From NCBI GenBank assembly GCA_023383035.1, contig JAHDYE010000006.1, positions 1 through 38,599 of the forward strand: DNA of 38,599 nucleotides. The letters are read 5' to 3'. Under the pieces are notes generated by a model. The model ran no database searches. It was given only the letters and a program-made list of their open reading frames with translations, and had not been told where the DNA came from. Position 1 is the stretch's first letter. Each line of letters opens with the position of its first letter. Both the position numbers and the translations under genes were made by a program. Source of the stretch: Burkholderiaceae bacterium. Its GTDB lineage: Bacteria > Pseudomonadota > Gammaproteobacteria > Burkholderiales > Burkholderiaceae_E. This document shows positions 14,581 through 38,599 of the stretch, one piece after another.

Positions 14581-17500
14581 ATGCAGCTCCCGGCCGTCAC
14601 GCTCGAAGACAAGTACACGTTGCTCAACGGGCGCGTCTTCCTCTCCGCCACCCAGGCGCTGGTGCGGCTGCCGATGCTGCAGCGCGAGCGCGACCTGGCC
14701 GCAGGGCTCGACACCGGAGGGCTGATCTCCGGTTACCGGGGCTCGCCGCTGGGCAGCTACGACAAGGAGCTGTGGGAAGCCGCACCTCTGCTGAAGCGGC
14801 ACAACATCCGGTTCCAGCCGGGGTTGAACGAAGACCTTGCGGCCACGGCGATCTGGGGGAGCCAGCAGGTCGGGATGGTCGCCGGCGCCACCGTCGACGG
14901 GGTGTTCGGCATCTGGTACGGCAAAGGCTTCGGCGTAGACCGCTCGGTAGACGTCTTCAAGCACGCCAACTCGGCCGGCAGCTCGCGCCACGGCGGCGTG
15001 CTGGTGGTAGCGGGAGACGATCACGGCGCGACGTCCTCCTGGATCGCCCACCAGAGCGAGCAGGTGTTCATGGCCGCCATGATCCCGGTGCTCAATCCCG
15101 CGTCGGTGCAGGAATACCTCGACTTCGGCCTGTATGGGTTCGCCCTGTCGCGGTTCTCCGGCTGCTGGGTCGGTTTCAAGGCGATTTCGGAGACGCTCGG
15201 GAGTTCTGCGTCGGTGGAGATCGACCCGCAGCGGGTCCCGATTCACTTGCCGCAGGATTTCGAGATGCCGCCGGATGGCCTGAACATCCGGTGGCCGGAT
15301 CTGGCGCCCGATTCGGAGCGCCGCCTGCATGGGCCGAAGATGGCCGCCGTGGCCGCGTTCGCACGCGCCAACACCATCGACCGGCTGGTATTCGACGCAC
15401 CGCAGGCCCGCCTGGGAATACTTGCCGCAGGCAAGGGCTACCTGGACGTGCGCCAGGCGCTGGCGGACCTCGGTCTGGACGAGGATGGGATGCGGTCGTT
15501 GGGCATTCGCCTCTACAAGCCGGGCCTGACCTGGCCGCTGGAGGAAACCGGCGCGCTTCGTTTCGCGCAAGGACTCGCCGACGTGCTGGTGGTGGAGGAA
15601 AAGCGCGACTTCATCGAAAGCCAGCTGGTGCGCATCCTCTATCACATGGAGCCTGGCCGCCGGCCCAGCGTAGTCGGCAGGCGCGACGAATCGGGGCCGT
15701 TGCTGCCGTCCACCGGTGAACTGACTCCTGTCATGGTGGCACGCGCCATCGTGAAGCGGCTGCGGCGGCTGGGTGTCGAGCGCCCGGACTTCGTCGAGCG
15801 CCTCGCCCGCATGGAGTCCTTCGAGCGCGTGCTGCAATTGCCGCTGCCGAAGGTCCAGCGGACTGCCTCGTTCTGCTCCGGCTGTCCGCACAATACGTCC
15901 ACCCGCGTCCCGGCCGGCAGCCGGGCGCTGGCGGGTATCGGCTGCCACACGATGGCGCTGCGCATCCCCTCCCGCAACACCCAGTTCATCACCCAGATGG
16001 GCGGCGAGGGTGCCAACTGGATCGGACAGGCTGGCTTCACGCGCGAGAAGCACGTGTTCCAGAACCTGGGCGATGGCACCTACATGCATAGCGGCCTGCT
16101 GGCGGTCCGTGCCGCCGTCGCAGCCGGCGTGAACATCACTTACAAGATCCTGTTCAACGACGCGGTCGCCATGACCGGCGGGCAGCCCGTGGAAGGCCAG
16201 ATCACCGTCCCGCGGATCGTGCAGCAACTGCTTGCCGAGGGCGTGACGCAGGTGACGGTGGTGACCGACGAGCCGGCCAAATACGCGAGGAACGCGCTGC
16301 CAGCCGCAACGCCGGTGCGGCATCGGTCGCAGCTCGACGAGGTGCAGCGGCAACTTCGGGACATGGCAGGGGTAACGGCACTGGTGTACGACCAGACCTG
16401 CGCAGCCGAGAAGCGGCGGCGACGCAAGAAAGGCCTGTACCCGGATCCACCCCGGCGCGTGTTCATCAACGAAGCCGTCTGCGAGGGCTGCGGCGACTGT
16501 TCGGAGGCATCGAACTGCATCTCGCTTGCGCCGCACGAAACGGAACTGGGCCGCAAACGCCGGATATCACAGTCCAACTGCAACAAGGATTTCTCCTGCA
16601 TCGACGGGTTCTGCCCGAGCTTCGTGACCGTACACGGCGGATCGCTGCGCAGACTCGCACCGTCCGGGCGCGATCCGGCCGATGGCCTCCTGGCCGCGTT
16701 GCCGCAGCCGCAGCCGGCTGCGCTGGAGCGGCCCTATTCGATCCTGGTCACGGGCATCGGCGGCACGGGAGTGATCACCATCGGCGCACTGCTCGGGATG
16801 GCCGCGCACCTGGAAGGCAAGGCGTGCACCATCCTGGATTTCACCGGCGTGGCTCAGAAGAACGGCGCGGTGATGAGCCACGTGCGCCTGGCCGGCCGCC
16901 CCGACGAACTGCACGCGGTGCGCATCGCCGCGGGCAGCGCGGACCTCGTTCTGGCGTGCGACATGCTGGTGGCCGTCATGCCGCAGGCGCTGGCGCGCAT
17001 GGCGCAGGGGGTCACGCGCGCCGTAGTGAACAGCGACCTTCAGCCGACCGCCGCTTTCGCGCTCGACCCCGATCTCGATTTCGATGCGCCGTCCATGCGG
17101 CGCACTCTGGCCGACACCGTCGGCGCGACCGATGTCGACTTCCTGGATGCGACGACGATGGCGACCGCACTGCTCGGCGACGCGATCGCAACCAACCTGT
17201 TCATGCTGGGCTACGCATGGCAGAAAGGCCTGGTGCCCCTCGGACGCGAGGCGATCGAACGCGCCGTCGAGCTGAACGCCGCCGCCGTCGAGAGCAACAA
17301 GCTCGCGTTCGCGTGGGGCCGACTGGCTGCGCATGACTGCGCCCGCGTGCGGGAGGCGCTGCGGCCGCTGGCAAGCGAGCCGTCACCGCGACCGCGCAGC
17401 GCCGCAGAACTTCTGGAGGATCGAGCCCGCCGGCTCACCGAGTACCAGGACGCCGCGTATGCGCAACGCTATCGCGACGCGGTGGTCCAGGCGCAGGCGG

Positions 17501-18093
17501 CCGAACAGGCGCGCGTGCCGGGCAGCACCGCCTTCGCGGAGGCGGTGGCGCGCCAGCTGTACCGGCTGATGGCCTACAAGGACGAATACGAGGTGGCACG
17601 GCTCTACACGAACGGCGGTTTCACGCAGCGCCTGCGCGAACAGTTCGACGGCGACGTGAAGCTGACGTTCCATCTCGCTCCACCGCTGTTCGCGGCGCGC
17701 GATCCGGCCACCGGCAGGCTGCGCAAGCGTGCCTATGGTCCGTGGATGTTCACGGTCATGAAGATGCTGGCCCGCCTCAAGGCACTGCGCGGCTCCCCGT
17801 TCGACCCGTTCGGGCATACGGCCGAGCGCCGCACGGAACGGCGGCTGATCGGCGAATACGAAGAACAGGTGCGGGAACTGGCCGCGCAGCTCACGCCCGC
17901 GAACCATGCGTTGGCGGTGGAAATCGCGAGCGTGCCGGAACGTATCCGTGGCTTCGGCCACGTGAAGGAGAAGAACCTGACGGAGGCGACCAGGCGGCAG
18001 GATCAGTTGCTGACGCGGTTCCGCCAGCTGTCCGCTGCGACTGTCGTTTCGCAGCGCCGGGAAGAAGCGGAGGACGTCGCGGTTCCGCAATAA
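14581..18093 (+). CDS. Indolepyruvate:ferredoxin oxidoreductase-family protein (fused single chain, about 1170 aa)
   Basis: GLISGYRGSPLGSYD start, TPP region MGGEGANWIGQAGF...FQNLGDGTYMHSG, ferredoxin-like CEGCGDCSEASNC, gamma domain TGIGGTGVITIGALLGMAAH. Confidence 0.9.
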   Translation: MQLPAVTLEDKYTLLNGRVFLSATQALVRLPMLQRERDLAAGLDTGGLISGYRGSPLGSYDKELWEAAPLLKRHNIRFQPGLNEDLAATAIWGSQQVGMVAGATVDGVFGIWYGKGFGVDRSVDVFKHANSAGSSRHGGVLVVAGDDHGATSSWIAHQSEQVFMAAMIPVLNPASVQEYLDFGLYGFALSRFSGCWVGFKAISETLGSSASVEIDPQRVPIHLPQDFEMPPDGLNIRWPDLAPDSERRLHGPKMAAVAAFARANTIDRLVFDAPQARLGILAAGKGYLDVRQALADLGLDEDGMRSLGIRLYKPGLTWPLEETGALRFAQGLADVLVVEEKRDFIESQLVRILYHMEPGRRPSVVGRRDESGPLLPSTGELTPVMVARAIVKRLRRLGVERPDFVERLARMESFERVLQLPLPKVQRTASFCSGCPHNTSTRVPAGSRALAGIGCHTMALRIPSRNTQFITQMGGEGANWIGQAGFTREKHVFQNLGDGTYMHSGLLAVRAAVAAGVNITYKILFNDAVAMTGGQPVEGQITVPRIVQQLLAEGVTQVTVVTDEPAKYARNALPAATPVRHRSQLDEVQRQLRDMAGVTALVYDQTCAAEKRRRRKKGLYPDPPRRVFINEAVCEGCGDCSEASNCISLAPHETELGRKRRISQSNCNKDFSCIDGFCPSFVTVHGGSLRRLAPSGRDPADGLLAALPQPQPAALERPYSILVTGIGGTGVITIGALLGMAAHLEGKACTILDFTGVAQKNGAVMSHVRLAGRPDELHAVRIAAGSADLVLACDMLVAVMPQALARMAQGVTRAVVNSDLQPTAAFALDPDLDFDAPSMRRTLADTVGATDVDFLDATTMATALLGDAIATNLFMLGYAWQKGLVPLGREAIERAVELNAAAVESNKLAFAWGRLAAHDCARVREALRPLASEPSPRPRSAAELLEDRARRLTEYQDAAYAQRYRDAVVQAQAAEQARVPGSTAFAEAVARQLYRLMAYKDEYEVARLYTNGGFTQRLREQFDGDVKLTFHLAPPLFAARDPATGRLRKRAYGPWMFTVMKMLARLKALRGSPFDPFGHTAERRTERRLIGEYEEQVRELAAQLTPANHALAVEIASVPERIRGFGHVKEKNLTEATRRQDQLLTRFRQLSAATVVSQRREEAEDVAVPQ

Positions 18094-21182: not shown

Positions 21183-22153
21183 ATGCGACAGTTGAACATC
21201 GGGCGCCGCCGGGCGCTGGTCCTGATCGGCGCGACTGCATGCCAGCCGCTGTTCGCCGCAGAGGGTTTTCCCAGCCGGCCGATCGAGCTGGTGGTGCCGT
21301 TCCCGCCGGGCGGCACCACGGATCTGATGGGTCGCGCGCTCGCACGTGCCATGGCCAGGCATCTGCCCAACAACCAGTCGGTGGTGGTGGTGAATGTCTC
21401 GGGCGCCAGCGGCATCGTCGGGATCACCAGCGTGTACAACGCCAAGCCGGACGGCTACCGGATCGGACTGGCCGGCTACACGACGTTCTCGCTGCACCCG
21501 CACTATGGGCGGACCGCCTTCACGCACGACGGACTGCAGCACCTCGGCCGGGTCGCCAATTTCTCGCAGGTGATGCTGGTGCGGAAGGACGCGCCGTGGG
21601 AGACGTTCGAGGACTGGATCGCGCACGTGAAGCGGAACCCGGACAAGTTCACCTATGGCGTACCGGGGGTCGGGTCGATCCTGCACATCACGATGGAACT
21701 GATCAACCAGAAGGCGGGCCTGAAGACCCGGGCCGTGGCGTTCAACGGCGGCGCCGAGCAGATGGCAGCGCTGCTTGGAGGCCATGTGCAGGGCGCGATC
21801 TCCGGTGTGGGCGATGCCAAGACGTACCTCGATTCGGGCGAATTGCGGATCCTGTTCAACGCCGGCACCGGCAGTGACAGTTACACGGCGAAGGCGCCGA
21901 CGGTCAAGGAGAAAGGCGTCGACGTGGCGGTCGACATCGCCTTCAGCGCTGTTGCACCGAAGGGCATTCCGCCGGATGCGCTGTCCGTGCTGCAGGAGGC
22001 CGTGCGCAAGGCGCTCGACGATCCGCAGCTGGCCGAGCAGTTCCGGAACGTGGGACTGAAACCGGGTTATGCAACACCGCAGACGGTGCAACAGGAGATC
22101 GACGCGCAGTTCGCGGCCAACCGCGAGGTGTTGCTCAAGCTGGGCCTGATCAA

Positions 22154-28173: not shown

Positions 28174-28190
28174 CCCTACTCCCACTTGAT
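28174..28190. repeat. Left copy of a 17-nt direct repeat; candidate guaA-type attachment core
   Basis: ccctactcccacttgat; minus strand reads QETIKWE-stop. Confidence 0.5.
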
Positions 28191-28204
28191 GGTTTCCTGT
28201 CATC

Positions 28205-28582
28205 TTAAGTTATTGAAAAAACTAAGATCTTCTTGAAACCGAACAAGAAGCCCTTGATATCGAACGCGATGCCATCGTCCAGGTCGATCGCACGGATCTC
28301 GCGGAACGTCTCGAGCATGGGTTCGGGCGCCGGATCGCCATACCCGAGCAGATCCACGTCGCGGGTGGGGCGGTGCGGATCCTCGAACCATGTCGTTATC
28401 AGCATCGCGCCCTTGAGCACGAAGCGGTCGCGGTGCGATGAGACGCTGAGCCGATGCAGCAGGCGCTCGATGGCGTAGCGCGTCAGCAGAAGGTCGAACT
28501 GTTGGCCCTTCTGCTTCGCCAGATTGAGCAGGCGTGCTCGAACCGACGCACCGATGTCGCGGCGCTTCTTCGGCTCAGGCAT
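28205..28582 (-). pseudogene. abiEii: Truncated AbiEii/AbiGii-family nucleotidyltransferase toxin
   Basis: FVLKGAMLITTWFEDPHRPTRDVDLLGYGD NTase core followed by short unrelated tail (IKGFLFGFKKILVFSIT); 125 aa versus about 300 aa expected. Confidence 0.75.
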
Positions 28583-29198
28583 CGGAGGTCAACGCGGTGA
28601 CGTACGGCTCCATGATCTTCCAGACCTTCGCCTTGACGGCCTGCCTGGCAATCTCGGCGGGCTGCGTCCTCCTTTGCCTCAGGCTCTCGCGCAGCCCTTC
28701 CAGCGCGACGTTGACGCCGACGGTCCGTCGATAGCGGAACAGGTCGGCGACGGTTCGCGCGACGCCGAAGATCGGCACCGACACGCCGTCGATGACATGC
28801 CGCTCCACGTCGTCTGCGAGGCGGTCCTCGGAGAAGCGGGCGAACCGAATGGCCGGATACGCGAGCTTCGGACGCCATTCCTTCAGTCCGATGGCCATCC
28901 AGACCTTCGGGGGGATCTGGTCGGTCAGGCCATGGAAGGCCAGCGCCGACGTGAGGCACACGACACCCTTGGGGACGAGCTTGGAGGCCTCGGCCAGTGT
29001 ATGGTTGGCGTCCAAGGGCACGTCCGGGAGCTGGTACAGCCCGCGGGTCAGCCGCACGATGGCCCCTTCCCGCTCCAGCCGCGAGACGGTTGCCGCGGTG
29101 ATGCCCTGCGCCATCAGCTCGCTCAGGCGAGCCATACCCGTGCCGCGCAGATGCGCGAGGGCAAGATCGCGTTGGCTCAGGGTGCGGCCGGATTCCAC
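28575..29198 (-). CDS. abiEi: AbiEi-family type IV antitoxin/transcriptional regulator
   Basis: HTH ARLSELMAQGITAATVSRLEREGAIVRLTRGLYQLPD and AbiEi domain; overlaps the start of abiEii by 8 nt. Confidence 0.88.
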   Translation of the reverse strand: MESGRTLSQRDLALAHLRGTGMARLSELMAQGITAATVSRLEREGAIVRLTRGLYQLPDVPLDANHTLAEASKLVPKGVVCLTSALAFHGLTDQIPPKVWMAIGLKEWRPKLAYPAIRFARFSEDRLADDVERHVIDGVSVPIFGVARTVADLFRYRRTVGVNVALEGLRESLRQRRTQPAEIARQAVKAKVWKIMEPYVTALTSDA

Positions 29199-29206
29199 TG
29201 ATACAA

Positions 29207-29234
29207 ATCCTTTGGGAAGGATAGAAACTATCCT
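29207..29234. promoter_or_regulatory. Two overlapping inverted repeats upstream of abiEi; candidate AbiEi operator
   Basis: ATCCTT-tggg-AAGGAT (29207-29222) overlaps AGGATAG-aaa-CTATCCT (29218-29234), 9-36 nt upstream of the abiEi start. Confidence 0.65.
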
Positions 29235-29784
29235 AGGTTTTATATCGCGTGTCCACCCCTAGCGGCATGCCGCTGTCGGACTCTCGGGCTGCGACCCGCG
29301 CTTCGTACCGAATCGCGGCCATCCGGCTTTGATCCCTGACGCTTCCGGCCCCTTCAAAGGCCCGCGCGCTGTGCTTGCAGCTGCGTCCTCCCTTAGCGGC
29401 CGCCTCCGAACCTGTGACGGCTGCACTGCCCCGTACAGCTGTCCGTCCCCGGCAATCCCGCCCGACCCTTCCGGAGCCGATCATGTCGAACGAACTCGTT
29501 CTCTACCTGACGTCCCTGGAACCATTCCTCTGCCCCCACTACGGCTTGGAACGGCGATGACGTCGATCTGTTGTGACAGAGGTCCATCTCTGCAGATAAA
29601 GCGCGTGGTAATTTTCTGACGCGACAACATCAACGAGAGGTCCCGGAATGCAACGGTGACCCGTCGACATCCGCTTCGACGAGGCAAGCTGTCACGCCAA
29701 GCCTGCTCGTCTCGTCGCAGTAGGTGGCTCGCCCGATGAACCAGTCGACCTGAACAATGCCTCTCGCGCTGGTGGCGGATCGTC

Positions 29785-29807
29785 GCCGCCTTCGGCGGCC
29801 TTTTTCC
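29785..29807 (+). terminator. Intrinsic terminator immediately upstream of jetA; possible attenuator
   Basis: GCCGCC-TTC-GGCGGC-CTTTTTCC; ends 33 nt before the jetA ATG. Confidence 0.75.
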
Positions 29808-29839
29808 TGCCGTGAGCCTTGTGACAACCGGCCTTGGGT

Positions 29840-31315
29840 ATGAGCAACTACGGCGTTCTGGGACTGTACGACGACCTCAAGACCCTGCGCGAGCAACCGC
29901 ACTGGAAGCTGCTTGCCGCGCACGGTGCATCCGCCGTTGCAGCCAGCCTGTACTGCCTGTTCCTGGATGGTCCTGAACGGCAACTCCCTGCCTCCGCGGT
30001 GCATGAGCGACTGACTCGGCACCTCGAACTGCTGCGAAGCATCGGCGTGGACATGCCACAGACCGCCCAAGGCTACGTGCTGGACTGGCTCGCGCAGGGG
30101 TGGCTGCGGCGCGAGTACCCCGAAGGCGCAACCGAAGAACAGTACGAGCTTACCGCGGACGCCGCCGACACGCTGCGCCACCTGATGAGATTGAACCGGC
30201 CGCGGTCCTTCGCCACCGAGAGCCGACTCACGTCGGTTCTGCAGTTGCTCCATTCGCTGGCTGAGGCGACCGACACCAACCCGGAGACCCGAGTTGCCGC
30301 GCTGTTGGCCGAGCGCGAGCGCATTGACGCTCAGATCGAAGCAGTCAAGGCCGGTCGCTTCAGCACCTTGCCGGTAGACCGGGCGGTCGAACGCGCTCGT
30401 GAAGTCATCTCTCAGGGAGAGGAACTGCTGGGTGACTTCGACAAGGTTCGCGAACTCTTCGCGGAGATCAACCTGCAACTTCGCAAAGATTTGGTCGAGA
30501 ACGATGGCGCCCGCGGAGAGGTGCTGTCCAAGATCTTCGACGGCATCGACGTCCTCAAGCAAACCGATGCCGGCAAGGTGTTCGAGGCGTTCTGGAACCT
30601 GCTTATCGACCCGTTGGCCTCTGCACGATTCGAGGAGGCGCTGCAGCAGGCTGTCGCGCGGCCCTTCGCCGGCAGTCTCAGTATCGAAGAGCGACGCTTC
30701 CTAGCGCACCTCAAGTCACGGTTGGTCGATCACGCGGCCGTCGTCCACGGCGTGCAGTCCAGCTTCGCCTCGGGCCTGCAGTCGTTTGTGCGCAGCCGCG
30801 AGTTCGCCGAACAGCGACGCATCACCAAACTACTGAAGTCAGCACAGCAGGCTGCCCTCGCGGCAGCCGAAGACATCCGACCCAACAGGCGCCTAGACTT
30901 TTACCTCGTGCGCACGAGTGCCGCCATCCGTTCGGCATCGCAGTGGCTGCTGCATGACCCGCTCGTCCGGACGGCGGACACCTCCATGGAATCCTCCGAA
31001 CCTAGCAATCTGCGGCTGGAGGACATCCAGGACTTGGTACAGCGGTCGGAGATCGACGTGCGCACGCTGCGCAAGAACCTCCGAGCGGTCCTGGCAGAGG
31101 CTTCGCCAGTGACTATCGGGCAAGTCCTGCAGCGCCACCCAGCTCGCCAAGGCCTGGGCACGGTGGTGGGCTATCTGCACCTGGCAGTGCGGCACGCAGT
31201 TGCTGCCGAAGGCCGAGAAAGCATCCGCTGGGAAGGCGGCGATGGGACGTGGCGCCGCGCCAGCGCGCCGCTCTTCTACTTCGTCCAGGAGCGCACACAT
31301 GAGCTCGCCGATTGA
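29840..31315 (+). CDS. jetA: Wadjet anti-plasmid system protein JetA (DUF3375)
   Basis: First gene of a four-gene overlapping operon; MSNYGVLGLYDDLKTLREQPHWKLLAAHGASAVAASLYCLFL... DUF3375-like; TTG at 29834 is an alternative start. Confidence 0.9.
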   Translation: MSNYGVLGLYDDLKTLREQPHWKLLAAHGASAVAASLYCLFLDGPERQLPASAVHERLTRHLELLRSIGVDMPQTAQGYVLDWLAQGWLRREYPEGATEEQYELTADAADTLRHLMRLNRPRSFATESRLTSVLQLLHSLAEATDTNPETRVAALLAERERIDAQIEAVKAGRFSTLPVDRAVERAREVISQGEELLGDFDKVRELFAEINLQLRKDLVENDGARGEVLSKIFDGIDVLKQTDAGKVFEAFWNLLIDPLASARFEEALQQAVARPFAGSLSIEERRFLAHLKSRLVDHAAVVHGVQSSFASGLQSFVRSREFAEQRRITKLLKSAQQAALAAAEDIRPNRRLDFYLVRTSAAIRSASQWLLHDPLVRTADTSMESSEPSNLRLEDIQDLVQRSEIDVRTLRKNLRAVLAEASPVTIGQVLQRHPARQGLGTVVGYLHLAVRHAVAAEGRESIRWEGGDGTWRRASAPLFYFVQERTHELAD

Positions 31316-32156
31316 CGACACCTCGTCGAGCACCGGATTACCGGGGGACATCCCGCGCTTATTGTTGAAGCCGGAACTGCAAGAAGCGTCCACGGGATTT
31401 TCGGCACTGTCAGCCGTTCCGGAAGAGGTTCCCGGCGACGACATCAAGCTCGATTCGCAGGTTGACCTGCCTGATGACCGGCTGTTTGAGGGCGACACAG
31501 GCACACTCAAAGGCGAAACTCGCCGCTGCCTTGTTGTATTGCTCAGCGGCCCGAGCGTCGACGGGCGGCGCCAACCGGCGCTCTGGCAAGTGCTGGTTCG
31601 AGACCGGCGCGAGCTTCAATCCCGCCTACATGACATCTTTCTCGACCTGGTCGTCGACATCGACCAGCAGGTTGCGTTCATCCGGCAGATCGCGAGCGAG
31701 GATGGCGACAGCATTCCCATCCTCCTCCGCCGCCAGCAGCTGACCTTCATCGAATCGGCTCTGGTGCTGTTCTTGCGCCAACGTTTGACCGAGGCCGACT
31801 CCGTGAACGAACGTGCGGTTGTCTCTGCGTTGGAAATGACGGACCACCTGTCCGTCTTCGAGAAGGCGAACAACACGGATGGCGTGAAGTTCGACAAGCA
31901 GTGCGTCGCCGCCATCGAGAAGTGCAAGCAACTCAACCTCATCCGCCCGATCCGCGCAAGTGACGGCCGTTTCGAGGTCTCTCCTACCCTCAAGCTCCTG
32001 TTCGGCGCCGAAGACATTCAGGCGCTCACCGCGGCGTACGAGACATTCAAGATAGCGGCGGCCGACGATGACCTAGCGAGCCTGGACGAGGCAATCGCCA
32101 AAGGAATGGCTGAAGGTGCAGCGCCGGACTTCGAAGAAGCGCAGGGAGCGGATTGA
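31299..32156 (+). CDS. jetB: Wadjet protein JetB (DUF4194)
   Basis: LHDIFLDLVVDIDQQVAFIRQ...LLRRQQLTFIESALVLFLRQRL...ERAVVSALEMTDHLSVF; position between jetA and the SMC-like gene; start overlaps jetA by 17 nt. Confidence 0.88.
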   Translation: MSSPIDDTSSSTGLPGDIPRLLLKPELQEASTGFSALSAVPEEVPGDDIKLDSQVDLPDDRLFEGDTGTLKGETRRCLVVLLSGPSVDGRRQPALWQVLVRDRRELQSRLHDIFLDLVVDIDQQVAFIRQIASEDGDSIPILLRRQQLTFIESALVLFLRQRLTEADSVNERAVVSALEMTDHLSVFEKANNTDGVKFDKQCVAAIEKCKQLNLIRPIRASDGRFEVSPTLKLLFGAEDIQALTAAYETFKIAAADDDLASLDEAIAKGMAEGAAPDFEEAQGAD

Positions 32157-35100
32157 TGTTGGAGGACACCGACGCCGAGCAAGCTGCCAGGGAGCTTTTC
32201 GAGACTGCCGCGACACACGGTGCCGAGCAGGTCCTGCGCCTCAAGCGTGAAGAGCTTGAGCAATTCAAGCTTGTCCAGGTACAGAGCTTCAACTGGGGCA
32301 CGTTCAGCGGGCACCTCAAGGTTGACGTCGCACCCAAGGGGATGCTCTTCATTGGCCCCTCCGGTTCGGGCAAGTCCACCATCTTCGACTCGCACGCCTC
32401 GCTCCTGACGCCGCCGCGGTGGCTGAACTTCAACGTCGCGGCCCGCGAATCCGAAAGCCGCCAGGATCGCAACCTGGTCACCTACGTCCGAGGTGTGTGG
32501 GGCGAGCAAACCGGTAGTGCCGGCGAGATCTCCGACCAGCAGCTGCGTCCCAGGCCAACTTGGTCCGCAATCGCCGAGACCTACCGCAGCGGCGAAGGCA
32601 AGGTGGTGACGCTCGCACACGTCTATTGGATCCGCACGGCGTCCAACGCTTCGCGGGATGTCGGGAAGCGCTATCTCGTGGCTGAACGCGCTCTCGACCT
32701 GGCTGAGCTAAAGTTTTTTCCCGAGAGCCAGTTCAACGCGCGGCGCTTCAAGACCGATCTACCCGGCGTCTACGACACCGACGCCTTCAGCGAGTACCAG
32801 GAGCGCTTTCGCTCTCGGCTCGGTATCGACAGCGAACACGCGCTCAAGCTATTGCACAAGACTCAGTCAGCCAAGAACCTCGGCGGCCTGACCGATTTCT
32901 TGCGCGACTTCATGCTCGATGAGCCGCGCACTCGTGAGATGGCCGACGACTTGGTTGAGCAGTTCAGCAAGCTGGACAACGCCCACAACGAGGTGGTGTC
33001 GGCGGGCCGGCAGATTGAAACGCTCAAACCCGCGCGGGAAGCGAATGCCGAACGCCAACGCTTGTTGCAAAGGCGTGGCGAGCTCGAAGAGATCCGCACA
33101 GCGGTGGACAACTTCCAGCAGGAGCGCAGGGGCGAGCTGCTGCAGACGGAACGACGCTCCACCGCAACCCTGCTCGACGGTCAGGCCCAGTTGCTCACCA
33201 TCCTGGAGAAGCGAAAGGCAGAGGCGCGCGCTGATCTCGACCTCCTGGTTGAGCAGCGTCGCGGCATGGGCGGCGAGCAGTTGGAACGCCTGGATGCTGA
33301 TCGCCAACAGGCCGAGCAAGAGGCACAGGACCGAGAGGCCAAACGCGAGCGGGTTCGGCAAGCCTGCTCAGTGCTGGGAGCGACCCTGCCGGATGCGCCG
33401 CAGCGGCACGCGGAGCTGGTCGACTGGGCCAAGTCCGAACTTGAGCAAGCTTCCGAGGGAGACGGTGCAGACAGCGCCAAACGATCTGAACTGGCGGTGC
33501 AGGAGTCCGACCTGAATCGCCGGCTCGTTCAGATCCAGACGGAGCTTGCCAGCCTGGCCCGCCTGCAAAGCTCCAACGTTCCATCCCACCTGGCCGATAT
33601 TCGCTGGCAGCTTGCCAAGGCCCTGCACCTGCGCGAAGGCGAGCTTCCCTTCGCCGGCGAACTCATTGAGGTCAAGCAGCCGGAGAAGCGCTGGCAAGGC
33701 GCGATCGAGAGGGTATTGCGTGGCTTCGCACTGTCCATGCTGGTCGAAGAGCGGCTGTACTCGGCCGTGTCGCGTTACGTTGACCAAACCCACCTGAAGG
33801 GCAGGCTGGTCTATATCCGCATGCTCCCGCAGGCGGCACCCGCAGGCGCGCCGAAATCCAACTCGGTCATGCACAAGGTCGTCGTCTCTGACGGCGCGCA
33901 CCGGCAATGGGTGAGTGCCGAGCTGCGGCATCGGTTCGATCTCGAGTGCGTCGAGACCGCCGATGAGCTGCGAGACCTGGCTAGCGGCGTCACTCGCAAC
34001 GGCCTCATCAAGCAAGGAGGTCGTCGACACGAGAAGGATGACCGCTCGGGCGTCGACGACAGGCGCAACTGGGTGCTCGGCGCAGACACCACGGCGAAGG
34101 TCACGGCCCTGCAAAACGAAGCCGACAGCCTCAACGCGCAGCTGGGCGACGTGCGCCAGCAACTTCAGAAGCTGGACGACCGAAGCCGCAACCAGGTCAA
34201 GCGCGTGCGCGCTTGCCAGACGATCTCGGATCATCGCTGGCAGGACATCGACTCTGCCACGCCGGCGCAGCGAGCGCGCGAACTCATTCAGCAGGCGCAG
34301 CAGCTGCGCGACACCAGCCCTGACCTGGCGATCATCGATGCCCGCATCGAGGTCGCCAAGGGACTGTTGACAGCGGCTGAGAAGCAGCACACCGAGCAGG
34401 CCGCGCAGGTGCTGGCGACCTCTCGGCAATTGGACGATCTAGACAGGGAGATAGCCCGCCGCGCTGAGCTTGCGTTCGTGGCCCCCACGCCCTTTCAGCG
34501 CAACGCTTTGGACGAGCGGCTGGAAACTGCCGGACGAACGCCGACATTGGCGACGTTGGCCGACGACATGCGGTTCGTGGATCGCCGTCTCAGCAACGAA
34601 GTGAATGCCCTTGACGGGCAGTTGGCCGACCTTGTGCGCAAGATCGAGGACGCTTTTTCCGCGTACAACCGCGGCTGGCTCGCAGAGTCCGGTGGGCTGG
34701 ACCCAAAGATGGCGAGCTATGACGAGTACGACGCCAAACTCACCCGCCTGCAGATCGACGATCTGCCGCGAGTTGAAAAGAAGTTCAAGCAGTTGCTCAA
34801 CGAGCAGAGCAATCAGCACATCGCGTTGCTGGCCAACCAGATCGATCAGGAGCGCCGCGACATCAGCGAGAAGATGGACGCGGTCAATCGCAGCCTGCGC
34901 AACGCCGAGTTCAATCCCGGCACCTATCTGGTGATCGAGGTCGAGGACCGCACGCCTCCCGAGGCCAAGCAGTTCAAGGCTGACCTGCGTGCTGCCCTGG
35001 CCAATACGCTCAGCGTCGATGACCAGGCGGCCGAAGCGCGGTTCCAGGCATTCAAGGCCCTCATCAAACGGCTGGCAAGCCAGCAGACACCCGACGTCAA

Positions 35101-35566
35101 TTGGAAGACGCTGGCGCTCGACGTGCGGTTGCACGTGGAGTTCATCGCCCGCGAACTGCGGGAAGACGGCACGGAAGTGGAGGTCTACCGCAGCGGCGCC
35201 GGCAAGTCCGGTGGCCAGCGTCAGAAGCTTACCGCCACTTGCTTGGCGGCGGCCTTGCGCTATCAGTTGGGTGGCCCCGGCCGACTGCGGCCGACCTTCT
35301 CGACAGTCTTCCTCGACGAAGCGTTCGACAAGGCTGATGCCGATTTCACCGAAGCGGCGATGAAAATTTTCAAGATGTTCGGCTTCCAGCTCATCATCGC
35401 CACGCCCATCAAGTCGGTCATGACCATCGAGCCGTACGTTGGGGGCGCGGTGTTCGTGCATATCCAGGACCGAATGCACTCCAAGGTCTTGGTGCTGCCG
35501 TACGACGAAGAGGCACAGCGCATCGACTACGGAGTGCTTGACGGGCATGACCATGAGACGACCTGA
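32156..35566 (+). CDS. jetC: Wadjet SMC-like ATPase JetC
   Basis: Walker A GMLFIGPSGSGKSTIFD, coiled-coil core, signature KSGGQRQKL, Walker B FSTVFLDEAFDKAD; TGATG overlap with jetB. Confidence 0.93.
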   Translation: MLEDTDAEQAARELFETAATHGAEQVLRLKREELEQFKLVQVQSFNWGTFSGHLKVDVAPKGMLFIGPSGSGKSTIFDSHASLLTPPRWLNFNVAARESESRQDRNLVTYVRGVWGEQTGSAGEISDQQLRPRPTWSAIAETYRSGEGKVVTLAHVYWIRTASNASRDVGKRYLVAERALDLAELKFFPESQFNARRFKTDLPGVYDTDAFSEYQERFRSRLGIDSEHALKLLHKTQSAKNLGGLTDFLRDFMLDEPRTREMADDLVEQFSKLDNAHNEVVSAGRQIETLKPAREANAERQRLLQRRGELEEIRTAVDNFQQERRGELLQTERRSTATLLDGQAQLLTILEKRKAEARADLDLLVEQRRGMGGEQLERLDADRQQAEQEAQDREAKRERVRQACSVLGATLPDAPQRHAELVDWAKSELEQASEGDGADSAKRSELAVQESDLNRRLVQIQTELASLARLQSSNVPSHLADIRWQLAKALHLREGELPFAGELIEVKQPEKRWQGAIERVLRGFALSMLVEERLYSAVSRYVDQTHLKGRLVYIRMLPQAAPAGAPKSNSVMHKVVVSDGAHRQWVSAELRHRFDLECVETADELRDLASGVTRNGLIKQGGRRHEKDDRSGVDDRRNWVLGADTTAKVTALQNEADSLNAQLGDVRQQLQKLDDRSRNQVKRVRACQTISDHRWQDIDSATPAQRARELIQQAQQLRDTSPDLAIIDARIEVAKGLLTAAEKQHTEQAAQVLATSRQLDDLDREIARRAELAFVAPTPFQRNALDERLETAGRTPTLATLADDMRFVDRRLSNEVNALDGQLADLVRKIEDAFSAYNRGWLAESGGLDPKMASYDEYDAKLTRLQIDDLPRVEKKFKQLLNEQSNQHIALLANQIDQERRDISEKMDAVNRSLRNAEFNPGTYLVIEVEDRTPPEAKQFKADLRAALANTLSVDDQAAEARFQAFKALIKRLASQQTPDVNWKTLALDVRLHVEFIARELREDGTEVEVYRSGAGKSGGQRQKLTATCLAAALRYQLGGPGRLRPTFSTVFLDEAFDKADADFTEAAMKIFKMFGFQLIIATPIKSVMTIEPYVGGAVFVHIQDRMHSKVLVLPYDEEAQRIDYGVLDGHDHETT

Positions 35567-36749
35567 GGACGTCGTCAACTGGGCGCGGCAACGCTACAGC
35601 AACCAGCGCCGGCGATGGTTGGATGGTGCGGGCGAATGGCCGCTTACGGTGTCGCTGGAACGGCCAAGTGAACAGGCGGCGCTTCGAGACCCTGTTGCCG
35701 TTCGGGCCTGGTCCGAGGCTTGGGCCACGTGGACCCCAATGACCACTGATGTCGCGCTGGAAACCGAAGCGGTCGCCTGGCAACGTATTGGGACACAAAC
35801 CCTACCCTGCCGCATTTCATTTGCCACACCAGCATCCGTTGCCCGCCTCATCGGTGAAGGCTCATCTTGGCAGCGGGCCACCGTACGGCGTGTACAGCTC
35901 GTTCACCGATGGCCGCAGCTGGCCGAAGCTGGCCTGGGAACGCACTTCGATGTCTTGGCAAGCTGGCACGACTCGGACTTCGAGAGGCTCGGTGCGCTGC
36001 TGGAGTGGTTCGAGACGAATCCCCGCTCGGGCCTCTACTTGCGCCAACTTCCCGTTCGCGGCATCGACACAAAGTGGATCGACCTGCACCGACGCGGTGT
36101 GGTGTCAGACTTGCTGCGAAGACTTCGGGGAAACGGAATCGCGTCGAGCGATGAGCCGGACCAGGCGACGGGCCCGGACTTCTTCGAACTCTGTGGTCTT
36201 CGTCGGCCCACGGCCAGGATCAGAGTTCTGCTGCTGTCGCCGGAGCTCAGGCGCGCCGCCGGAGGGCTGAGAGACATTGAAGCGCCGCTGGAACAACTTC
36301 AGGCGCTCGACCTAACACCCCGGCGTGCGCTGTTGGTCGAAAACCTCGAGACGGCGTACGCGCTGCCCGATTTCGCGGGGACGGTCGCTTTCGTGAAGCT
36401 CGGCAACGCGGTCTCACTCGCCAGTCAGATGCCGTGGATGACTGATGCTCAGGTGGTGTACTGGGGTGACATCGACACCCACGGCTTCGGCATCCTTGCG
36501 CAGGCACGCAAGACCCTCAGCAACGTCACGTCGGTGCTGATGGACGAAGCGACACTGCTCGATCACCACGATAGATGCGTTCCGGAGCCGACCCAGACGC
36601 GCAATGCCGATGTCTCGATGCTCACAGATGCTGAAGCGGGCGTCTACAGAGGACTCCTCGACGGAACATGGGGACAGTCCCTTCGCCTCGAGCAAGAGCG
36701 GATTGAGTGGCTGTATGGGGTATCTCGGATTTCGCAGGCGCTGACCTGA
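35553..36749 (+). CDS. jetD: Wadjet TOPRIM-like nuclease subunit JetD (DUF3322-DUF2220)
   Basis: LLVENLETAYALPDF and VVYWGDIDTHGFGILAQAR TOPRIM-like E...DxD; start overlaps jetC end; in-frame ATG at 35547 also possible. Confidence 0.9.
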   Translation: MRRPEDVVNWARQRYSNQRRRWLDGAGEWPLTVSLERPSEQAALRDPVAVRAWSEAWATWTPMTTDVALETEAVAWQRIGTQTLPCRISFATPASVARLIGEGSSWQRATVRRVQLVHRWPQLAEAGLGTHFDVLASWHDSDFERLGALLEWFETNPRSGLYLRQLPVRGIDTKWIDLHRRGVVSDLLRRLRGNGIASSDEPDQATGPDFFELCGLRRPTARIRVLLLSPELRRAAGGLRDIEAPLEQLQALDLTPRRALLVENLETAYALPDFAGTVAFVKLGNAVSLASQMPWMTDAQVVYWGDIDTHGFGILAQARKTLSNVTSVLMDEATLLDHHDRCVPEPTQTRNADVSMLTDAEAGVYRGLLDGTWGQSLRLEQERIEWLYGVSRISQALT

Positions 36750-36802
36750 CGCGGCCTGGGCAGCTGACTGGGTGTGGTCCGGCGTTTCGTTTGTTTCTAT
36801 TT

Positions 36803-37415
36803 TTTACCGTCAGCGCAACTCAGCCTTCAGATCGCCCGGAAGCCCGCATGAATGCTGGGCTTCGCGTCCGGAATTTACTGTCAACCTGAAAATCGACCTG
36901 ACGGTAAATCTCTGCCGGCAACTCGACGAAGCGATTTTACCGCCAGATTTACCGTCAATTCGCTCGGCATGCCGTCGATAGTCGTCGATAATCCTGAACA
37001 GACATTTCTCTGACAGATCAAGACCTTGCGTAGTAGAAAGCACGCCTATCGATAGTCCGCGATAGACGCCGATAGACCTCGATCCCTACTCCCACTCGAT
37101 CATCAACGGCTTCTTTAAGCCATTGATTCGCCTGTACGACATCTCGAACCTCGCTGGTCTTACCGTCAGATGTACCGCCACTTCGCGCGGCATCCCCGCG
37201 CGCAGCTTCCACCATCGATCGACATCTATCGAGAACAGTCGGCGCGTCCACGATGACCAGCTTTCGAGATCTATCGAGATCTATCGCTTCGTTGCATCCG
37301 ATCCCGCAGGTGGAAGCAGCCACTCGGACGCTCGAGTCGGAATCGAGAAGGTGCCGGCATCAGATGGCGTAACCTGTTGTTGCATCATGTCTTTCTGGCA
37401 GAAATTTTACCGTCA
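36803..37415. repeat. Iterated short motifs (TTTACCGTCA-like and CGATAG/CTATCG) in a non-coding segment around the right att-like repeat
   Basis: TTTACCGTCA or one/two-mismatch forms at 36803, 36874, 36899 (reverse), 36935, 36948, 37159, 37171, 37406; CGATAG/CTATCG clusters at 36976-37075 and 37226-37286. Confidence 0.7.
37084..37100. repeat. Right copy of the 17-nt direct repeat; candidate guaA-type attachment core
   Basis: ccctactcccactcgat, 16/17 identical and same orientation as 28174-28190; minus strand reads MIEWE-stop. Confidence 0.5.
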
Positions 37416-37440: not shown

Positions 37441-37761
37441 TCAGTGTGCATCCGCCGTCTGCTCCATTGCTTCCTTCCACGGCCTGATCTTCGCGAGCGT
37501 CTTCGCAAGGCCGGCCTTCGCCACCTCGGTATCGTAGTCCGCCTGCAGGCGCAGCCACCATCCATCCGAGAGCCCGAAGAAGCGGCACAGCCGCAGATCG
37601 GTATCCGCAGTGATGGCGCGCTTGCCGGCGACGATCTCGCCGATGCGCTGCGCGGGCACGCCGATCTCCTTTGCCAGACGGTAGTTGCTCATGCTCAAGG
37701 GCTTGAGGAACTCCTCGGCGAGCATCTCGCCCGGCGACACCGGCTTAAGTTTCCTGGTCAT
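37441..37761 (-). CDS. higA: HigA-family addiction module antitoxin
   Basis: MTRKLKPVSPGEMLAEEFLKPLSMSNYRLAKEIGVPAQRIGEIVAGKRAITADTDLRLCRFFGLSDGWWLRLQADYD. Confidence 0.93.
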   Translation of the reverse strand: MTRKLKPVSPGEMLAEEFLKPLSMSNYRLAKEIGVPAQRIGEIVAGKRAITADTDLRLCRFFGLSDGWWLRLQADYDTEVAKAGLAKTLAKIRPWKEAMEQTADAH

Positions 37762-37772
37762 CTCGTCTTGCC

Positions 37773-38054
37773 TCAGTGATAGTCCACGATCTCGACGTCT
37801 TCGGCGTCGCTTCCCGTCCAGCGAAAGCAGATGCGGAACTGATCGTTGACCCGCACGCTCCACTGGCCCGCGCGATCGCCCTTCAGCTGCTCGAGTCGGT
37901 TGGCCGGCGGCGCGCGGAGGTCCTCGATGCGACGTGCGAGGTCGAGTTGCTTCAGCTTGCGCAGCGCCGGACGCTCGATGTTGGCAAAGCGCGCCACGCG
38001 CCGCAGCTGGGACAGTGCCTCGGTGTCGGCGCACTTGAACGTCCGGATCGCCAC
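37773..38054 (-). CDS. higB: HigB-family (RelE superfamily) toxin, probable GTG start
   Basis: VAIRTFKCADTEALSQLRRVARFANIERPALRKLKQLDLARRIEDLRAPPANRLEQLKGDRAGQWSVRVNDQFRICFRW; immediately upstream of higA. Confidence 0.9.
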   Translation of the reverse strand: MAIRTFKCADTEALSQLRRVARFANIERPALRKLKQLDLARRIEDLRAPPANRLEQLKGDRAGQWSVRVNDQFRICFRWTGSDAEDVEIVDYH

Positions 38055-38061
38055 AGGCAGA

Positions 38062-38099
38062 ATAATAACGCAGTGCGTGATTAACGACAAGCGTGATTA
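38062..38099 (-). promoter_or_regulatory. Candidate higBA promoter with a direct-repeat operator
   Basis: Minus strand: TTGTCG-N17-TATTAT with two TAATCACGC direct repeats 16 nt apart covering the -35/spacer. Confidence 0.55.
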
Positions 38100-38102
38100 T
38101 CG

Positions 38103-38599
38103 ATGACCAGACACGCAGCATACAAGTGGGCGTTCGGGCCGCGTTTTCGCCGGCACTCCTTCGGCTGGCGCTCGCAACCAGCCGTGCAGCGGGTCAGGGA
38201 AGCTAGCGCCGAGATCCAGAAGGTTGCGAGGAAAGACCCGGCATTGGCCGCTGCCGGCGCGGTCCTATTCCTGGAGAGGGTGTCGCCTGCGCTCGAACAG
38301 GTCGACAGTTCCTCCGGCGCCATCGGCACCGCCGTCAATCACGCGATCGAGACCTGCGCGACGATCATCGCCGCCGCGCCGGTCGACGACCGAACGCGAG
38401 ATCAGTGGCTCGACCGGCTCTGGGAAGCGCATCAGAACGACGAGATCCCCTACATCGAACGGCTGGCCGACTACTGGGGCGAGCTTTGTGCATCGCAGAC
38501 GCGCGCTTCTGCTTGGGCCGACAGACTGATTGGCGCCGTCGAGAGCATGTGGGGTTCGAACCGGAAGCCCGGAGGCTACTTCCACGGCACGATCGCCTG
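38103..38599 (+). CDS. Conserved hypothetical protein, truncated by window end, divergent from higBA
   Basis: Open frame to the edge: MTRHAAYKWAFGPRFRRHSFGWRSQPAVQRVREASAEIQKVARKDPALAAAGAVLFLERVSPALEQVDSSSGAIGTAVNHAIETCATIIAAAP... Confidence 0.7.
   Translation, partial: MTRHAAYKWAFGPRFRRHSFGWRSQPAVQRVREASAEIQKVARKDPALAAAGAVLFLERVSPALEQVDSSSGAIGTAVNHAIETCATIIAAAPVDDRTRDQWLDRLWEAHQNDEIPYIERLADYWGELCASQTRASAWADRLIGAVESMWGSNRKPGGYFHGTIA

Follow-up and report, generated by a model that had tools for sequence, protein, structure and literature searches.

The window analysed here, the whole 38,599-nt stretch from the 4.1-Mb metagenome-assembled genome (MAG) of a Burkholderiaceae bacterium, carries four overlapping genes on one strand, for which the initial annotation had proposed a complete type I-like Wadjet operon in the matching domain order. 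The four genes are the following.

29840-31315, + strand: jetA, 491 aa, kleisin-like subunit, DUF3375, ATG start (PADLOC JetA1 2e-169; Pfam 6e-134; PDB JetA 6.5e-18).
31299-32156, + strand: jetB, 285 aa, KITE/MukE-like subunit, DUF4194 (PADLOC JetB1 1.4e-81; Pfam 1.9e-42).
32156-35566, + strand: jetC, 1136 aa, SMC/MukB-like ATPase (PADLOC JetC1 E=0; PDB JetC 1.3e-86).
35553-36749, + strand: jetD, 398 aa, TOPRIM nuclease (PADLOC JetD1 9e-119; Pfam JetD_C and DUF3322).

The coordinates, strand and intact frames given in the initial annotation for 29840-36749 were confirmed. The overlaps were likewise as described, with 17 nt between jetA and jetB, 1 nt between jetB and jetC (TGATG, in which jetC begins on the final nucleotide of the jetB stop codon) and 14 nt between jetC and jetD. 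An alternative in-frame ATG at 35547 would lengthen jetD and bring its overlap with jetC to 20 nt. No internal stop was found in any of the four frames. The three JetC motifs, which had been called intact, were located at 32354-32380 (Walker A, GPSGSGKST), 35204-35230 (signature, KSGGQRQKL) and 35309-35329 (Walker B, FLDEAFD), and their key residues were invariant in the alignment with relatives. The TOPRIM-like E...DxD that had been read in JetD held up against the solved JetD and MksG chains. E263 (36339-36341), within LLVENLE at 36330-36350, aligns with the mutated residue 248 of 8q72 JetD(E248A), and D306/D308, within YWGDIDTHG at 36459-36485, fall on the GDxD residues of the solved MksG and JetD (YWGDxD motif). 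Furthermore, the HMM check that had been proposed returned matches above the curated Pfam cut-offs for DUF3375, DUF4194, DUF3322 and JetD_C, as well as for AAA_29 and SbcC_Walker_B, and the Jet families were matched at E-values of 1e-81 to 0.

As for the type of the system, only the type I models of PADLOC matched well, the best JetC2 match being 6e-4 compared to 0 for JetC1. JetA, JetC and JetD have counterparts among the solved JetABCD and MksG chains, which settle the fold. The operon was assigned to type I Wadjet, an assignment that rests on the PADLOC models. Judged from its sequence, it encodes all parts of a type I Wadjet anti-plasmid system, which is, as the initial annotation had recognized, of an already known kind. 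The gene order A-B-C-D, the families, the Walker A/B motifs, the signature and the TOPRIM residues are common to the present copy and the solved JetABCD. However, the present copy is distant (approximately 1e-86 for JetC and 1e-8 to 1e-10 for JetD), and JetB was too diverged to give any PDB match by phmmer. It also differs in lying in a guaA-site unit and in the N-terminus of JetB, where the literal IFDR motif, reported as the JetD contact in a characterised system (PMC10586767), was not found. A different JetB N-terminal sequence could replace IFDR as the JetD contact.

The best PDB match of JetD was MksG (2e-21), followed by 8q72 JetD(E248A) (1.7e-10) and 7til JetD (1.8e-8), and a likeness of JetABC to MukBEF has been noted (PMC10586767). 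Both would fit a condensin-like MksBEF(G)/SMC complex that serves chromosome maintenance instead of defence. Nevertheless, such a role is very improbable for an operon that sits in an island, has a complete jetD with its TOPRIM residues and is matched by type I models alone. In its own GTDB family, JetD_C was matched in only 10 of the 74 genomes, which is unlike an essential function, and the title of PMC10123090 presents MksG itself as the part that executes a plasmid defence.

In the Wadjet family, JetABC forms a dimer of SMC motor units and JetD acts as the nuclease; circles smaller than roughly 50-100 kb are cut whatever their sequence or supercoiling, linear and larger DNA is spared, and a total-extrusion model accounts for the size sensing (PMC10586767). 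By analogy, JetA would be the kleisin, JetB the KITE subunit, JetC the SMC motor and JetD the TOPRIM nuclease of the type I Wadjet described here. Two SMC motors would engage the DNA and reel it into loops; if the DNA is a small circle, the extrusion would be completed, and the colliding motors would activate JetD to cut the plasmid. We infer that the present jetABCD copy cuts plasmids in this way, and its sequence holds nothing decisive against the family mechanism.

On both sides of the operon, the following features were recognized.

28176-28190, + strand: left attachment core with the guaA 3'-end motif (- strand: ...ATCAAGTGGGAGTAG); marks where the unit is bounded on the left and has no TTTACCGTCA arms.
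28205-28582, - strand: abiEii toxin remnant, only the first ~111 residues, cut short close to the left core (PADLOC AbiEii 6.9e-46 over 5-111 of the 299-position model).
28575-29198, - strand: abiEi antitoxin/regulator, intact (PADLOC AbiEi 1.7e-79; Pfam AbiEi_4).
36803-37085, no strand assigned: integrase-side arm, which extends up to the core and holds TATCG repeats and five TTTACCGTCA-type repeats.
37086-37100, + strand: right attachment core, junction of the Wadjet unit with the next unit, five arms to the left and two to the right.
37101-37415, no strand assigned: opposite arm, with which the next unit begins; contains an inverted repeat (CATCAACGGC...GCCATTGATT), two TTTACCGTCA sites and TATCG repeats.
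37441-38090, - strand: higBA of the neighbouring unit (higB 37773-38090; higA in the frame 37441-38121; TIGR02607 3.2e-29; HigB-like_toxin 6.5e-17).

The sequence CTACTCCCACTYGAT occurs only twice in the whole 4.1-Mb assembly, at 28176 and 37086, flanking the operon. On the other strand it reads ATCRAGTGGGAGTAG, which is the end of guaA (GMP synthase, ...TIEWE-stop). The GAGTGGGA core is matched at 8/8 positions by the right copy and at 7/8 by the left copy, AAGTGGGA. All seven TTTACCGTCA sites of the window (at most one mismatch) fall within 36803-37415; a first-order Markov model gave an expectation of 0.43 for the whole window, and the maximum in 60 simulations was 2. The opposite arm at 37101-37415 was matched at 72-89% beside cores in the related genomes G061, G063, G067, G068 and G072. 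The pattern of core plus CATCAA was rare in the order, being found by exact match in 12 of 399 genomes; the attachment region had no match in plasmids, and its pattern had none in viral contigs.

Directly beside the right core, at 37086-37130, lies an imperfect inverted repeat, ATCAACGGCTT...AAGCCATTGAT, which is kept in most units and is perhaps a binding site of an integrase or excisionase. Reading it as an integron attC site was set aside, since the arm repeats fit the phage-type integrase class and the guaA-adjacent integrase of relatives has Arm-DNA-bind_3 and a phage-type catalytic domain.

In the same-genus genomes G060, G061 and G070, an intact tyrosine integrase of 431 aa (domains Arm-DNA-bind_3 and Phage_integrase; 95-98% conserved) comes directly after guaA, and the spacer between the two genes contains TATCG repeats and TGACGGTAAA repeats. 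The other strand of window positions 36803-37100 showed an end-to-end colinear alignment with this spacer, and it was also colinear with what follows guaA in G066. Where the relatives have their integrase start, the window runs on for approximately 50 bp and then into the end of jetD. The Wadjet unit has no integrase gene; the nearest homologue that the MAG offers shares 30% identity and is encoded on another contig. The guaA gene itself was not found in this MAG, which is 83% complete, and the contig ends at 38599, 1.5 kb right of the core. The link of the unit to guaA thus rests on the likeness of the site sequences.

Defence systems commonly cluster in islands without integrases. Moreover, Wadjet I of S. 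maltophilia lies in conventional islands between core genes (PMC11680222). An ordinary chromosomal Wadjet of a defence island, with guaA-like sequences that are there by chance or as unrelated repeats, might therefore be considered. However, we regard this as improbable, because both of the only two cores of the assembly bound the Wadjet segment, because the arm motifs gather 7/7 inside 0.6 kb at one core, and because approximately 300 bp are colinear with true guaA-integrase junctions. In addition, the GC content steps from 68.4% (1-28175) to 62.6% (28176-37085) at the left core.

The numbers of arm repeats left and right of the core were then compared among junctions. They were 5/0 where guaA meets its element (G066). 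Unit starts mostly had 0-1 on the left and 2-4 on the right, and tandem junctions (37086 in the window and position 21598 in G072) had 5/2. The count of 5/2 therefore marks 37086 as the point at which the Wadjet unit adjoins the HigBA unit that follows it. In the same-genus G072 (G072:C2), five cores (1276, 6249, 12728, 17219 and 21598) lie ahead of guaA (28289) in one orientation, and no PF00589 match was found in this five-core stretch. Among the cargo of the G072 units are an SNF2 helicase accompanied by a HigBA-like pair, HigBA together with an HTH-IrrE protein, and a TOTE primase-helicase. The gene set that follows 37086 is also present in the G072 array (HigB 90%, next ORF 82%), and the HigBA pair recurs in units of G072 and G381 (HigB 90-91%). 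After HigBA, the 37441-38599 region holds the start of a conserved protein that has no Pfam or PADLOC match and recurs beside HigBA in guaA arrays (full copy at L061:8605-9747, 380 aa).

From these sequence features, we consider it probable, at roughly 85%, that a type I Wadjet is carried here as cargo in an integrase-less, core-delimited unit stacked at guaA. The operon would be the cargo of an 8.9-kb unit bounded by the guaA-type cores at 28176 and 37086. The unit retains the integrase-side arm, with the Wadjet operon in the place of the integrase gene, and is stacked beside the second, HigBA-bearing unit, presumably downstream of guaA. The initial annotation had pointed to the neighbourhood as a point of interest but had left its nature unstated; what surrounds the operon is a unit without an integrase, delimited by attachment sites, at a guaA-type integration site.

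The left end of the unit differs from that of a relative. In the same-genus G061 (G061:C22), a like left flank, core and AbiE junction are present at 86%, and its AbiE pair is intact, with a full-length AbiEii (81% identical over the shared part) and an AbiEi of 85% identity. Both the armless core and the shortened abiEii would be accounted for if the window unit had lost sequence at its left end, including the remainder of abiEii. Since the left core is without arms, the Wadjet unit may be hard to excise and perhaps immobile now. The truncated abiEii, the lost left arm and the missing integrase could also belong to a degenerating island in which the Wadjet itself has decayed to a non-functional state, as its AbiEii neighbour has; nevertheless, the four jet frames, their overlaps and the active-site residues are all intact, and such decay is hardly probable for the operon. 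Concerning the assembly behind the integrase-less unit, the left junction is also present in G061, an independent genome, and the jetD-to-arm junction was seen in the window alone; a repeat-mediated misassembly at core 37086 is possible. In the left flank, positions 14581-18093 encode a large fusion protein resembling indolepyruvate-ferredoxin oxidoreductase (TPP_enzyme_C, POR, DUF6537).

The relatives of JetC were collected by alignment query. The closest ones, in Ideonella, Trinickia, Telluria, Dyella, Rhodanobacter and Stenotrophomonas, were 40-45% identical over nearly the whole length, and that of Sphaerotilus sulfidivorans, located on a 59.8-kb plasmid, was 47.7% identical over nearly the whole length. 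A single-protein scan of 85,000 genomes with JetC peptide patterns gave no match, the patterns being too specific. The guaA attachment core was absent from the fetched chromosomal loci of these JetC relatives. Within the family, five genomes (G031, G032, G043, G064 and G073) have a type I JetC, which is 32-33% identical to that of the window, and no attachment core was found in the fetched stretch of any of them. They were accordingly rejected as relatives of the genus or family that share the Wadjet at a guaA-type site. Since the JetC of these five relatives is only 32-33% identical, the window Wadjet is probably a separate, laterally acquired lineage, and the GC step from 68.4% to 62.6% is in line with lateral acquisition.

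A comparable arrangement is known from GIsul2, which inserts at guaA with the core GAGTGGGA and has a third site, attLR; its integrase excises and integrates CR2-sul2, a unit without an integrase of its own that is bounded by attLR/attR (PMC9376610). The guaA 3'-end site, the GAGTGGGA core and an integrase-less segment bounded by attachment sites are common to both cases. However, the mobility of CR2-sul2 has been demonstrated and its cargo is resistance, whereas the present unit carries Wadjet, its mobility is a prediction, and no helper integrase was found in the MAG. Since it lacks its own integrase, the Wadjet unit is not an autonomous GIsul2-like island; its excision and insertion would be carried out by the integrase of another element.

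That tandem accretion of att-flanked elements that have lost their recombinase gives rise to cis-mobilizable elements is an established idea. Their formation by accretion of ICEs and IMEs is the subject of a review (PMC5704250). The tandem accretion of att-flanked, recombinase-less elements is shared with the present case, but the hosts, sites and recombinases of those elements are others; here a guaA-site tyrosine integrase, Burkholderiales-like genomes and defence or toxin-antitoxin (TA) cargo are concerned. The new detail is a Wadjet in a predicted mobile, integrase-less segment within a guaA-end stack, which in relatives often comes with defence or TA genes. A literature search for Wadjet, integrase and guaA yielded no statement on a guaA-site Wadjet in the accessible part of PMC11680222. 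A Stenotrophomonas paper rich in guaA mentions concerned MLST only and was set aside.

The window adds one intact, sequence-divergent copy to the type I Wadjet systems. Moreover, its vehicle would show that a 9-kb integrase-less unit can accommodate a large anti-plasmid complex and be stacked with other defence and TA units at a single gene end. This entails a paradox, in that the circle formed on excision of the Wadjet unit would itself fall within the size range that Wadjet attacks. We speculated that the guaA end of these Burkholderiales-like bacteria might serve as an integron-like cassette platform, at which one guaA-adjacent phage-type integrase per species or population adds and removes many integrase-less, attachment-delimited defence or TA units, and that a Wadjet in such an array could cut neighbouring units once they are excised as circles, thereby fixing the array in place; we hold this proposal to be improbable, and offer it as a tentative idea. 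Defence cargo beside guaA-type cores was also found in a genome of another family (G210:C45; L103:2327-11329), in which a CBASS-type cyclase and a patatin effector are located immediately to the left of the first core, and two guaA-type cores enclose an AEP-TOTE protein and AbiE.
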